Positions 19,539 to 54,358 of a stretch of 64,000 bases of DNA are shown here, piece after piece. The stretch is taken from contig NZ_JADYWL010000004.1 of assembly GCF_015864825.1 (NCBI RefSeq), positions 186,001-250,000 of the forward strand, read 5' to 3'. Both the position numbers and the translations under genes were made by a program. The notes under the pieces are model-generated. The model was not told where the DNA came from. It made no database searches and saw only the letters and a program-made list of their open reading frames with translations. The first letter of the stretch is position 1. Every line of letters begins with the position of its first letter. This DNA is from Psychrobacter sp. NZS113. GTDB taxonomy: Bacteria > Pseudomonadota > Gammaproteobacteria > Pseudomonadales > Moraxellaceae.

Positions 19539-19608
19539 GTAAGTAACTATGTTTTTATTAGGTATTTATACGGTGGAACAAATACCTAATAAAAACATAG
19601 TTACTTAC
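19539..19608. repeat. Perfect 29-bp inverted repeat
   Basis: Positions 19539-19567 and 19580-19608 are exact reverse complements (arm begins GTAAGTAACTATG), separated by 12 nt. The arms are AT-rich and there is no long T-run after them. It lies between the lipocalin start and the Nudix-ThiE stop. No gene was seen in the rest of this 438-bp gap. It may be a strong terminator for the Nudix gene, or a relic of a small mobile element. Confidence 0.85.
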
Positions 19609-33904: not shown

Positions 33905-33947
33905 AGCGTCTTCATTTTATATCGATATAAAATGGAGACGCTTTTTT
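33905..33947 (+). terminator. Long terminator after the TPR-like gene
   Basis: A roughly 19-bp stem (AGCGTCTTCATTTTATAT against its complement, one mismatch, centred on TCGA) followed by six T, about 57 bp past the stop. Confidence 0.85.
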
Positions 33948-45657: not shown

Positions 45658-45844
45658 TGGTTTAACCAATACATGAAATATACGCGACTAAGAAGCCAAC
45701 TAAGCTTATACTCGCGTCATTATCTAATTACGTGATATTATTTATAACATTATGGGCAACACCATCCAGTATGTAATTATTAAAAACATAAAAGATAGTG
45801 CTGTCCAACTACCATCCGATGCGATGACATTGATGAGGAGCATC

Positions 45845-47245
45845 ATGAGATTTTTTTCTGTACGTCAAACCAGCCGTGCTGTACTGTTTTCTATGGGTAT
45901 GAGTGCAGGCCTTGTGCTTAGTCTCAATGCCCAAGCTGCCACCGTAAAACCTGCAGCGGCTAAAGCGACAACCAATGCTGAACAAAGCAACGTGAATCGC
46001 TTGACCCCAGCCAATAGCACAGACGGTATCATTGCATTGGTCAATGAAGATGCTATCTTAAAAAGTGAATTGGTTGCTGCTATTGCGCAAGCTCAAGCAC
46101 GTGCTCAAGCTGCTGGTGAGCCAATTGACAACTCAGCACAGCTACAGTCTGAAGTGTTAAATGCACTTATTTTACGTGAGCTACAGCTGTCTATGATCAA
46201 GCGCTCAGGTCTAAAGCCTGATGATGCGGCTATCAATCAGCGCCTTGGTCAAATCGCACAAGCAGAAGGACTCGGTAGCATTGCAGCATTACAGCAACGC
46301 TTAGATGCAGCCAGACCTGGTAGCTACGCCGCTCTACGTGCTCAAATGATCGAAGATGCCTCTATTCAAACATTGCAGCAACGCCAAATCAGTAGTCGTG
46401 TCCGCATCAGCGAGCAAGATATTGATGCATTTTTGGCATCGCCTGAAGCCAAGCGTTTAAACCAAAGTGAATATCAAACAATCCATGTACGCGTGCCTTA
46501 CATAGATGACTATAGCCGTCTATCCGAGGCTCAGCGTGCAGAAGCATTAAAGGTAGCGGAAGCGTTACGCACTCGCCTGCTCGTATCAAATGTTAATGTT
46601 ACAGAAGCTGTTGCTGCTAGCCAAGGTAGCTATCCTATCCCGCTACAAGGTGGCGATATGGGCTTTCACAAAGCCGCCTCATTACCTACAGAGTTATCAA
46701 GCCAAATTACCAAGCTTGATGTCGGTGCTGTCAGTGAGCCATTAATTACTCCTGAAGGTATCGATATCATTAAGCTTGCTGATAAAAAAGCCAGTGATAC
46801 CATGCTGATACCGCAGTGGCAAACTCGTCACATATTAGTTAAAGTTGATGAGCTCCAGACGGATGCGCTTGCTGAACAAAAAATCAATGACTTATATGAA
46901 CAGTTACGTAGTGGTGCTGACTTTGCTGGTTTAGCATCGACCTACTCAGATGATCCAGGCTCAGCTGGTCGTGGTGGCGATCTTGACTGGGTCAGTGAAG
47001 AAGACATGGTCGGTCCGTTTGAAGCTGTCATGAAAAATACAGCAGTCGGTGATTACTCTGCTCCCTTCAAGACCCAGTTTGGCTGGCATATCTTAAAAAT
47101 TGACGGTAAGCGTGATCAAGATGTTAGTGAGCAATATCGTCGCAGTATGGCACGTCAAGCATTGTACCAACGCCTAGCACCACAGGCTCAAGAAGACTGG
47201 CTACAAGAGTTACGTTCTAGCGCTTATATCCAAGTACTTGGATAA
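45845..47245 (+). CDS. surA: Periplasmic chaperone / peptidyl-prolyl isomerase SurA
   Basis: Escorts outer-membrane proteins to BamA. Signal peptide about 1-30 (RAVLFSMGMSAGLVLSL, cleavage after NAQAA). SurA N-domain starts DGIIALVNEDAILKSEL. Two parvulin domains: the first degenerate (about 200-300, HVRVPYID), the second canonical (WQTRHILVKVD, FAGLASTYSDDPGSAGRGGDL, FGWHILKI). The open frame reaches back to 45752, but GAGGAG precedes the ATG at 45845 and puts the signal peptide at the N-terminus; the product is 466 residues. Placement right after lptD is conserved across gamma-proteobacteria and joins LptD to its chaperone. pdxA and ksgA, the usual next genes, are not present. Confidence 0.95.
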   Translation: MRFFSVRQTSRAVLFSMGMSAGLVLSLNAQAATVKPAAAKATTNAEQSNVNRLTPANSTDGIIALVNEDAILKSELVAAIAQAQARAQAAGEPIDNSAQLQSEVLNALILRELQLSMIKRSGLKPDDAAINQRLGQIAQAEGLGSIAALQQRLDAARPGSYAALRAQMIEDASIQTLQQRQISSRVRISEQDIDAFLASPEAKRLNQSEYQTIHVRVPYIDDYSRLSEAQRAEALKVAEALRTRLLVSNVNVTEAVAASQGSYPIPLQGGDMGFHKAASLPTELSSQITKLDVGAVSEPLITPEGIDIIKLADKKASDTMLIPQWQTRHILVKVDELQTDALAEQKINDLYEQLRSGADFAGLASTYSDDPGSAGRGGDLDWVSEEDMVGPFEAVMKNTAVGDYSAPFKTQFGWHILKIDGKRDQDVSEQYRRSMARQALYQRLAPQAQEDWLQELRSSAYIQVLG

Positions 47246-47283
47246 GCCACTGAATAGACTAATCACATAAATAGTCTTTGTGA

Positions 47284-47317
47284 AAAAGGGTACATGCCAA
47301 TGCATGTACCCTTTTTA
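47284..47317 (+). terminator. Rho-independent terminator after surA
   Basis: Perfect 15-bp stem (AAAAAGGGTACATGC with complement, 4-nt loop) ending in five T, 39 bp past the surA stop; its symmetry allows bidirectional use. Confidence 0.9.
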
Positions 47318-47343
47318 TTTGTGCTTTAAAAACTATAAAAATC

Positions 47344-47393
47344 TAGGGCATGTCTTCAATTCACTCGATAGTTATCTAAATGGGTTAAAAATG
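47344..47393. mobile_element. Solo left end of the 33956 element
   Basis: About 50 bp starting TAGGGCATGTCTTCAATTCA match the left end of the element at 33956 with about seven differences, running to ATGGC. No matching right end was found within the next 500 bp, so it is a decayed or truncated copy. Confidence 0.65.
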
Positions 47394-47547
47394 GCATATG
47401 CTCTACCCCTGCTAATACTTTGCTAATATCAGATTTACTACCTCGAGATGTAGTGTAGACATCTTAATCTATTATTTTAATCATTAGATACATGCGCCAA
47501 CTCTCTGAAAGCTAATTTTATACGGCTTAACTCTGTACAAATAAAGA

Positions 47548-47583
47548 AAAGCCCCGAACCTAGGGCGATTGGTTCGGGGCTTT
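47548..47583 (-). terminator. Strong GC-rich terminator with no assigned gene
   Basis: AAAGCCCCGAACC pairs perfectly (13 bp) across a 10-nt loop. On the minus strand it is followed by TTTTCTTTATTTG, a proper U-tract; the plus-strand tail is weaker. The nearest minus-strand gene, the EEP nuclease, ends 277 bp away. Confidence 0.85.
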
Positions 47584-47859
47584 AACGCTTCATGTTGTTG
47601 TTATTATCTCTTCCGTGTTGACTCATCCTAAGTCATGAACAGTAACCTATAAGACAGCGGGCTGACCTGAACTTTTATTGATACTGTCTCAACACTGCAT
47701 CCTTGCATATCCTTGTGTTGATGGTCGTATTGTAGGGCAATCAGTTTAATACAACTAGAGGCTAAAGACCTTATTTGACGTAAGCATATGCTTACGTTTT
47801 CAGAGGAAGCTTAATAGCGCAATAAGCTATCAAACTAGTATCTGTTGACCCAAAACGCT
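47584..47859 (-). other. Possible small-RNA locus upstream of the 47548 terminator
   Basis: No open frame is seen here. The stretch ends in the strong terminator at 47548-47583, and on the minus strand an unpaired-looking AATAACAACAACATG segment precedes that hairpin, a layout common in Hfq-type small RNAs. A perfect 20-bp palindrome ACGTAAGCATATGCTTACGT lies at 47778-47797, possibly an operator. It could equally be a long 3' untranslated tail of the nuclease mRNA. I recognise no known RNA family. Confidence 0.3.
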
Positions 47860-48987
47860 TCATTCTTCTGCGTGTTCTTTTGATACCTTTTTACCTTCTT
47901 TTTTACCTTCTTTTTTACCTTCTTTTATTTTGTGATCTGTCTCTCTAATATCTTCTGCATCCTTAGTAGGCGCATTTTGCGCTTGTTGATTGGTTTTTTC
48001 CGGCTCATATTGTAGCGTTGTCATAACAGGAAAGTGGTCAGAGCCAACAGAAGGCATACGCTTAATATCTACGACAGTAAAGCAGGCGCTATGAAAGATA
48101 TGATCCAACGCCCAGCGCAGAAATGGATAATTGACGTGGAAAGTATTGATAAAATGTCTGCCGATACGTGGGTCTAGTAGTCCAGATATACGCTGAAAAC
48201 GTCGAGTCGTCTTTGACCATGCCACATCATTGAGATCACCTGCCAATATCGCTGTTTGGTTGTTCTCTTTTATGTGTTTTCCGACCATCAGTAACTCGGC
48301 GTCACGAGTGGTAGATTTATCTGCTTCGGTTGGACTAGGCGGCATAGGATGCAAGCAGTACAACCAAATGACGCGACCACTTTGTAGTCGCAGTTGTGCA
48401 TGAATAGAAGGGATGTCATCTATCATCAAGTATTTGACTTCAGGATCAATCAGCTCAAGCTTAGAATAGAGATGCATACCGTATAAGTTATCTAATGGAA
48501 CTTTTACGGTATAAGGATAATCTGATTCGATTTGGTGTAAGGCCCTTTCCCATTTTTTATCGCTTTCCAACGTAATCAAGATATCAGGCTGTTTTTGCTC
48601 GACTAAACCGACCAATTTCTGGGTGTCATCATTGGGTGTCAGTACATTTGAAACCATTATTTTCAGATGGTTCTCCTGCCCTTCTGGCTTGTCTTTTGCT
48701 TTCTCGACTTCTTTTTTCCACAGTCTGGTATAAGGCAGTATCATTCTCAGCTGAAACGCTAAAGTGATACTTAAGACTGAGAATAGCACCCACTGACTTA
48801 ACTGCCATTCTGACCAAAACAGCAGCATGCCAATCCAAGCAATGGTACCTAACACCATGATTTGAATGCGTGGAAACTCAACACCGCGCACCCACCAATT
48901 ATCAAGTGGTATCCAACCCCAAATCGTCACAAAGGCAATGAATCCTGCTAGCCCCTGTAGGCTGTAATATAGTAGTGAGAGATCCAT
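47860..48987 (-). CDS. Membrane-anchored endonuclease/exonuclease/phosphatase family protein
   Basis: 375 residues. Three hydrophobic helices at the N-terminus (about 5-25, 38-58, 62-82) precede an EEP catalytic domain: KIMVSNVLTPN (Asn), ITLESDKKW (metal-binding Glu), GMHLYSKLEL, GDLNDVAWS (Asp-x-Asn) and SVGSDHFPVM (catalytic Asp-His). Membrane EEP proteins of this layout are common but their substrates are not settled; DNA, RNA and phospholipid are all possible. The hydrophilic C-terminus ends in KEGKKEGKKEGKK, coded by about three tandem 12-bp units (47888-47925), so length variation there would stay in frame. Confidence 0.82.
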   Translation of the reverse strand: MDLSLLYYSLQGLAGFIAFVTIWGWIPLDNWWVRGVEFPRIQIMVLGTIAWIGMLLFWSEWQLSQWVLFSVLSITLAFQLRMILPYTRLWKKEVEKAKDKPEGQENHLKIMVSNVLTPNDDTQKLVGLVEQKQPDILITLESDKKWERALHQIESDYPYTVKVPLDNLYGMHLYSKLELIDPEVKYLMIDDIPSIHAQLRLQSGRVIWLYCLHPMPPSPTEADKSTTRDAELLMVGKHIKENNQTAILAGDLNDVAWSKTTRRFQRISGLLDPRIGRHFINTFHVNYPFLRWALDHIFHSACFTVVDIKRMPSVGSDHFPVMTTLQYEPEKTNQQAQNAPTKDAEDIRETDHKIKEGKKEGKKEGKKVSKEHAEE

Positions 48988-53005: not shown

Positions 53006-54358
53006 TTACGAGATTAGTGCATTAACAAATACGACCACGACTGCAATTGGGGCAACAAATTTAGCAACGATTTGCCAAATCTGAAACGCGCCATTAGACA
53101 ATCCAAGCTCTTGTTGAATACTACGCTGATCCATTCTCCAAGCAAGGAATATAATCGCTGCAAGACCTGTTAAAGGTAGAATGAATTTACTAGTCAGTTT
53201 ATCCAAAGCATCAAAGATGTTGTTATCCAAGATAGTAACGTCAGACCATAGATTGAACGATAGTAATGCTGCAATACCTAACAACCAAATTATAGTGCTC
53301 GAAACGATCGTCGCTACGGTACGGCTCATAGAGGTACGCTCTTCTAAAAACTCAACCGTTGGCTCAAGTAATGAGATTGCTGATGTAACAGCAGCAAAGG
53401 TAATAAGTAAGAAGAACAATGTACCAATAATCGTACCGGCACCCATGCTACCAAAAGCAATTGGCAAACTGACAAAAATCAAACCAGGACCTGAAGCAGG
53501 ATCTAGGCCATTACTAAAGATAATTGGGAAAATAGCTAGACCAGCAGCCAAAGCAATCACAGTATCTAGAATAACAACCATACGCGCCGTCTTAAGCAAG
53601 TTCACTTCACGACCCAAATACGAGCCATAAGCGACCATAATACCCATACCAATTGATAGTGTGAAAAAAGCATGACCCAATGCGGCAATCATAACATCTT
53701 CGGTAAGCTTGCTTAAATCAGGAGTAAACAGATAAGCCACTGCCTCACCAAAGCCACCATTCATGACGTTGTAGCCAACGATAACGAATAAAATCACACC
53801 TAATAACGGCATTAAAATCTTAGCGGTTCTTTCAATCCCGCTCGTTACACCAATACCAACGATAACAGCGGTAAAGATCATAAATACCGTGTGCCATATC
53901 GTTAATGTACCAGCAGACGCTAACATAGCATCAAATGTGGCACCGACAGCATCGCTATCTTGTCCAACAAACTGACCTGTCGCTATTTTAGTCACATAGT
54001 TGAGTGCCCAACCACCGATGACACTATAGAACGATAGAATTAAGAAGCCACCCAAAATACCTGAAGCCCCAATAATTCCCCAACTGCGTGACTTGCCTTC
54101 ACTGGCAGCAACATCAACAAAGGTATTAACTGGGTTCTTTTGTCCGCGGCGACCAATCAGCCATTCAGCAACCAAGATTGGGAAACCGACCAGCGCGATA
54201 CAGAATAAATAAGCAATAACGAAAGCTGAACCACCACTTTCACCTACCATATATGGAAATTTCCATATATTTCCCAAACCAACTGCTGAACCTACTGCTG
54301 CCAACACGAAGCCAAAACTTGAGCTCCACTGTGCATGTTCTTGTTTATTGATAGACAT
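53006..54358 (-). CDS. Sodium-dependent transporter, NSS (SNF) family
   Basis: LeuT-fold sodium symporter, likely for an amino acid or related solute, in the inner membrane. The first helix segment SSFGFVLAAVGSAVGLGNIWKFPYMVGESGG is the NSS signature with the Na+-site residues; EWLIGRRGQKNP follows, and SIGMGIMVAYGSY (TM6) and FAAVTSAISLLEP (TM8) are typical. About 450 residues with eleven to twelve membrane segments, the short bacterial type. ATG 54367 lies right against GAGG, so the ATG at 54358, nine bases on, is preferred. Substrate cannot be told from sequence. Confidence 0.92.
   Translation of the reverse strand: MSINKQEHAQWSSSFGFVLAAVGSAVGLGNIWKFPYMVGESGGSAFVIAYLFCIALVGFPILVAEWLIGRRGQKNPVNTFVDVAASEGKSRSWGIIGASGILGGFLILSFYSVIGGWALNYVTKIATGQFVGQDSDAVGATFDAMLASAGTLTIWHTVFMIFTAVIVGIGVTSGIERTAKILMPLLGVILFVIVGYNVMNGGFGEAVAYLFTPDLSKLTEDVMIAALGHAFFTLSIGMGIMVAYGSYLGREVNLLKTARMVVILDTVIALAAGLAIFPIIFSNGLDPASGPGLIFVSLPIAFGSMGAGTIIGTLFFLLITFAAVTSAISLLEPTVEFLEERTSMSRTVATIVSSTIIWLLGIAALLSFNLWSDVTILDNNIFDALDKLTSKFILPLTGLAAIIFLAWRMDQRSIQQELGLSNGAFQIWQIVAKFVAPIAVVVVFVNALIS

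Follow-up and report, generated by a model that had tools for sequence, protein, structure and literature searches.

A candidate Gac-activated, CsrA-sequestering small RNA of the RsmY/RsmZ functional class in Psychrobacter

In Pseudomonas, RNAs that carry several unpaired GGA motifs sequester proteins of the RsmA family, a single motif being insufficient (PMC2375449). The GacA sites of P. aeruginosa have the form TGTAAG-N6-CTTACA and are located at -75 for rsmY and at -196 for rsmZ (PMC4950607), and those of P. fluorescens SS101 read TGTAAGCATTCTCTTACA (rsmY) and TGTAAGCATTCGCTTACT (rsmZ) (PMC4353343). For Acinetobacter, a related genus, CsrA-regulating RNAs have been predicted (PMC5568370 and PMC7366521), and Rfam-type matches to RsmY and RsmZ are reported for A. 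johnsonii (PMC4993456). A literature search by title gave no such RNA in Psychrobacter; a 2006 prediction paper may mention one.

The locus described here lies on the minus strand of a 64-kb stretch of a Psychrobacter genome (hereafter the window). Judging from its sequence, it is very probably an independent small-RNA gene of the same functional class as RsmY, RsmZ and CsrB, activated by the Gac system and sequestering CsrA. It resembles the RsmY, RsmZ and RsmX genes of Pseudomonas in its palindromic GacA-type box, in its unpaired ANGGA motifs, in standing alone with its own terminator and in the single CsrA-type partner gene of the genome, and differs from them in its sequence and gene neighbourhood, in the lack of an Rfam match and in a conserved GCCC terminator loop. 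It contains four GGA motifs, whereas seven are given for the RsmY of P. aeruginosa (PMC4950607). Like the enterobacterial CsrB and CsrC, it would be controlled by a system of the BarA/UvrY type and carry GGA hairpins of the kind that CsrA binds; it is shorter and has fewer sites. With the Rsm RNAs that others have predicted in Acinetobacter, it would share a role in regulating CsrA in a related genus.

The Rfam covariance-model search that an earlier note on this DNA had proposed was run and assigned the window RNA to none of the known families, either at gathering scores or up to E 10, the models of the CsrB clan included. The best sub-threshold matches (RefA9 on the opposite strand, trpB and ClpQY) fall on the terminator hairpin, with scores far below their cut-offs. 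Rfam models are sequence lineages and not the definition of a functional class. The window RNA, which would work like RsmY and RsmZ, is provisionally placed as a new, predicted member of that functional class.

The locus and its putative GacA-controlled promoter

The locus had been singled out in the earlier note for an orphan terminator and a palindrome, and its description of both is borne out. The terminator has a perfect 13-bp stem at 47548-47583 (AAAGCCCCGAACC / GGTTCGGGGCTTT) with a 10-nt loop, and its T-rich tail falls on the minus strand, the working direction claimed for it. The stem is 277 bp from the nuclease open reading frame (47860-48987, minus strand), which ends at 47860. The region is free of open frames, the longest one starting with ATG, GTG or TTG between 47543 and 47797 having 26 aa; AATAACAACAACATG is indeed located ahead of the hairpin (47605-47591, minus strand), and the 20-bp palindrome at 47778-47797 is perfect. 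Because the terminator scan permits loops of 3-8 nt, it reports no more than 5 pairs of the 13-bp stem. On the other side, surA (45752-47245, plus strand) converges with the nuclease gene and has a terminator-like hairpin of its own at 47283-47316, so that the small-RNA terminator is not obviously needed for surA. Taken as RNA, the minus strand of 47540-47859 has a better predicted fold than shuffled versions of it (z -3.76; none of 100 equalled it).

Since the block from the palindrome to the terminator is conserved in the genus, this layout is more than chance, and the palindrome and the orphan terminator appear to mark the opposite ends of a single small-RNA gene (Table 1). The earlier note had overlooked the GacA-type identity of the palindrome, the -10 element 45 bp further on and the GGA motifs.

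Table 1. Features of the small-RNA locus, in window coordinates; the ends of the RNA are inferred.
Feature	Position	Strand	Basis
GacA-type upstream activating box, 20-bp palindrome ACGTAAGCATATGCTTACGT, core GTAAGCATATGCTTAC at 47780-47795	47778-47797	-	Published UAS and conservation
-10 element TACAAT, with the box core 45 bp upstream	47729-47734	-	TANAAT in 35/35 rows; gap of 45 in 37/37 loci
Predicted small RNA, ~180 nt	47543-47723	-	Conservation; covariance model, 233 bits
5' hairpin UCAACAC...GUGUUGA with GGA 1 (47712-47710) and GGA 2 (47702-47700, AAGGAU hexaloop)	47689-47721	-	
Central hairpin, loop with GCCC, without GGA	47638-47688	-	Covariation in helices 3 and 4
Third hairpin, GGA 3 in loop (47628-47626)	47619-47635	-	
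GGA 4, predicted single-stranded	47612-47614	-	Invariant
(AAY)n run AATAACAACAACA, with which Hfq may make contact	47593-47605	-	10 nt or longer in 33/35 rows
Intrinsic terminator, conserved GCCC loop and U-rich tail	47540-47583	-	GCCC in loop, 37/37 loci

Read on the minus strand, the palindrome differs by one base at each outer end from the upstream activating sequence published for GacA, TGTAAG-N6-CTTACA, having C/G there in place of T/A, and it agrees with both P. fluorescens SS101 sites (PMC4353343). Its GTAAG-N6-CTTAC core is intact in 30 of 35 rows, the other five having one arm mismatch. The -10 element follows with a spacing that is the same at all 37 loci, the one in Moraxella boevrei included. 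If transcription starts near 47722, the centre of the box would be near -66. A clear -35 element was not found for the TACAAT promoter, which is absent from the list of the promoter scan. The genome contains GTAAG-N6-CTTAC three times, each time as the same 16-mer GTAAGCATATGCTTAC, and the reversed control pattern once. These observations point to a GacA/UvrY-type palindromic box upstream of an RNA that appears to be non-coding and to have its own promoter and intrinsic terminator.

Perfect palindromes of at least 20 bp number three within the window, that of the box being one. Two AT-rich perfect 22-bp palindromes are found at 33913-33934 and 54249-54270, and an inverted repeat at 19539-19608, starting GTAAGTAAC, has perfect 29-bp arms around a loop of 12 nt. 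Closer to the locus, a ~52-bp intergenic element at 47340-47395 (plus strand) has about 25 further copies in the genome, with 80-95% identity, and the nuclease gene terminates in a KEGKKEGKKEGKK repeat with a 12-bp unit (47860-47930, minus strand); the visible ends of the relatives look shorter.

Predicted RNA structure, GGA motifs and candidate protein partners

Three of the four GGA motifs of the predicted RNA are ANGGA, and all four are unpaired in the predicted fold. In an alignment of 31 rows, outside of which five divergent rows were kept (L044-L047 and L242), all 12 GGA columns are invariant, compared with 66 of the 198 columns overall, a result with a probability of about 1e-6 if the columns are independent. 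Among the trinucleotides listed with at least four copies in the RNA, GGA is the only one of which every copy is invariant. In the predicted folds of 36 RNAs, with the last 40 nt omitted, the mean lowest unpaired probability is 0.69 for GGA and 0.31 for all triplets, and GGA is the most unpaired of the 16 trinucleotides with two G/C. The count of four is itself not above chance (mean of 2.97 in dinucleotide shuffles, p 0.32) and was dropped as evidence for the window RNA; in the same shuffles, the three ANGGA are borderline (p 0.058), and ANGGAT has a p of 0.017. The argument rests on the conservation of these motifs and their position in loops, not on their number.

The drawn structure pairs in 95.9% of the cells, and in 34-42% when slid by 1-3 columns. 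Changes on both sides are seen for 16 pairs (shuffle mean 6.2, 0 of 500 reaching 16), with shuffles that ignore kinship and a structure drawn from the same alignment. The GGA hairpins account for 3 of these 16 pairs, and the central hairpin together with the terminator for 13; in the 5' hairpin, the outer stem has hardly any variation. In the divergent rows the third hairpin is GGCTAAGGATTAGCC, the letters of the stem therefore changing while the loop stays, and an additional GGA stretch is present.

The genome encodes CsrA in one gene, above the Pfam and NCBIfam cut-offs. The protein is close to solved CsrA proteins and has L4 and R44, which we take to be RNA-binding residues; the gene before csrA looks, by eye, like an aspartokinase. 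The candidate GacA has 211 aa and finds its best NCBIfam match in UvrY/SirA/GacA (240 bits, cut-off 280), and GacS/BarA is best matched (375 bits, cut-off 890) by a kinase of 1184 aa that combines HisKA, HATPase, receiver and Hpt domains, both having the right domain make-up at scores below the cut-offs. The box, its fixed spacing to the -10 element, the terminator, the conserved covarying structure, the invariant GGA and the genes for CsrA and for the best-matching GacA and GacS-like proteins can all be read from the sequence.

In the mechanism that we propose, GacA, activated by the GacS-like kinase, would bind to the palindrome and drive the promoter. The ~180-nt RNA would offer four GGA sites, each of them looped out or single-stranded, and CsrA dimers binding to these sites would be drawn off their mRNAs, with release of the CsrA targets. 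Transcription, dependence on Gac, CsrA binding and the regulatory output are what we infer here.

The earlier note had proposed a trans-acting, Hfq-type small RNA. The conservation, the promoter elements, the terminator and the covariation speak strongly for a small RNA; as to the class, sequestration of CsrA is likelier. The GCCC of the terminator loop is kept although the stem around it varies (GAACC, AAACC or AAGTC, with CAACGC in M. boevrei); 34 of the 37 loci pass a strict loop test, the final UA being paired in L034, L036 and L044. A second GCCC is located upstream of the terminator in 30 of the 36 genus RNAs. The loops differ among the eight terminators examined of the L040-type sister RNA (see below) but show little variation in the L041 type, so that the terminator-loop control is mixed. 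An ordinary terminator needs no conserved GCCC loop. Taken together with the (AAY)n run, this loop is a hint that the RNA may have another function, one that might involve Hfq; because the run is conserved and hfq is present in the genome, an additional Hfq contact is possible. It is conceivable, though rather doubtful, that the RNA is dual, a Gac-driven CsrA sponge which also acts through Hfq, the GCCC loop serving either as a seed for pairing or as a site for a protein. If so, one transcript would couple the CsrA and Hfq networks in Psychrobacter and in at least one Moraxella.

The AAY run ahead of a U-tailed terminator, the presence of hfq and the GCCC loop would equally suit an RNA that pairs with its targets in an Hfq-dependent way and in which the GGA motifs are incidental. 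We regard such an RNA as improbable, since two marks of CsrA sponges, a GacA-type box whose spacing is fixed and GGA motifs that are both invariant and looped, argue for CsrA sequestration rather than primarily Hfq-dependent pairing. No target or seed was found, and the sole pairing tried, between the GCCCUA loop and UAGGGC of L040, was rejected: UAGGGC is kept in 3 of the 22 usable L040-type rows (of 24 loci, L255 and L262 being excluded), and UUGGGC is absent from L040 in the three species whose loop reads GCCCAA.

Conservation and other readings of the locus

Conservation among Psychrobacter, a check suggested together with the small-RNA proposal, is complete among the genomes examined. A search with 47500-47860 gave a match in 35 of 36 same-genus genomes (the own genome included) and in none of 21 genomes of other families. 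Five of the 35 matches are short or weak; four of these (L044-L047) were confirmed as homologues by reading and by the covariance-model score, and the fifth (L043) was read and aligned. The remaining genome was recovered by the covariance model, which brings the block to 36 of 36. The conserved length is about 255 bp and not the hairpin alone, and the alignment shows indels of 1-2 nt.

Beyond this set, the covariance model, applied with strict filters to an order-wide draw of 390 genomes, matches 12, all of the same genus; the first six of the non-matches listed are same-family genomes. Among the 118 loci listed from a pattern scan, the model matches 36, namely 35 from Psychrobacter and one from Moraxella boevrei (L202, 53.8 bits), and the other 82 give no match at E 0.1. 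The genomes of the pattern scan overlap with the same-genus set, P. frigidicola ACAM 304, for instance, probably being G012. The M. boevrei homologue (L202, 4966-5120) has the same box, the 45-bp gap and the GCCC terminator loop next to a different upstream gene.

These data bear on another suggestion of the earlier note, a long 3' tail of the nuclease mRNA from which an RNA could be released. The nuclease gene is on the same strand, 277 bp upstream, with no other terminator listed in between on that strand, and it adjoins the RNA in 35 of the 36 genus loci. Such an origin is nevertheless very unlikely, because in distant relatives conservation starts at the GacA-type box with its own -10 element directly upstream of the RNA, the stretch from the nuclease gene to the box being without conservation in the distant rows; the M. 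boevrei homologue, moreover, does without the nuclease gene as its upstream neighbour. Read-through from the nuclease gene into the small RNA may occur.

The likeness to Hfq/Crc-binding decoys, also pointed out earlier, turns out to be weak. CrcZ has several CA motifs. The window RNA shares with such decoys an A-rich AAY-type run in a stand-alone RNA, but it has one run and not several (the longest run per row was reported), a sigma-70-type -10 element and a GacA-type box, with no sigma-54 site noticed by eye, and a decoy of the CrcZ type is hardly to be expected here. A short protein-coding gene or a mere terminator between the convergent surA and nuclease genes is just as hard to credit, in spite of ATG codons within the block, given the absence of any frame over 26 aa, the small indels, the length of the conserved block and the hairpin that surA has of its own.

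Sister RNAs and the predicted Gac-Csr circuit

The preferred reading, a CsrA sponge under Gac control, would extend to the other two boxes of the genome (L040 and L041), which are separated by 46 bp from a TTATAG or TTATAA. They head longer RNAs (L040, 1501-1850; L041, 1501-1775) with terminators and with 8 and 6 GGA, respectively, numbers that are not clearly raised (p 0.07 and 0.35); ANGGAT is raised in both (p 0.002 and 0 of 1000). Neither matches Rfam at gathering scores. L040 has a weak sub-threshold match to CsrC (19.9 bits, cut-off 61, E 0.0073), whereas the window RNA has none. Long matches, of more than 270 query bases, are found in 30 of the 36 genus genomes for L040, with 4 more partial or cross matches, and in 26 of the 36 for L041, with 7 more. 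One of 20 L041-type loci (L266) gave no box.

In G005, G021, G023 and G035, a span of 2 kb at the L040-type place holds two or three of these boxes. In four relatives (L256, L257, L258 and L263), box-headed units bearing GGA stand in tandem, two or three at a time, and share a GACG-N-CTTAC-like block right after the box.

None of the three box-headed RNAs is matched by an Rfam model at gathering scores. With three identical boxes, heading the window RNA and two longer GGA-bearing sister RNAs, the genome would possess a Gac-Csr circuit, which is predicted here for Psychrobacter.
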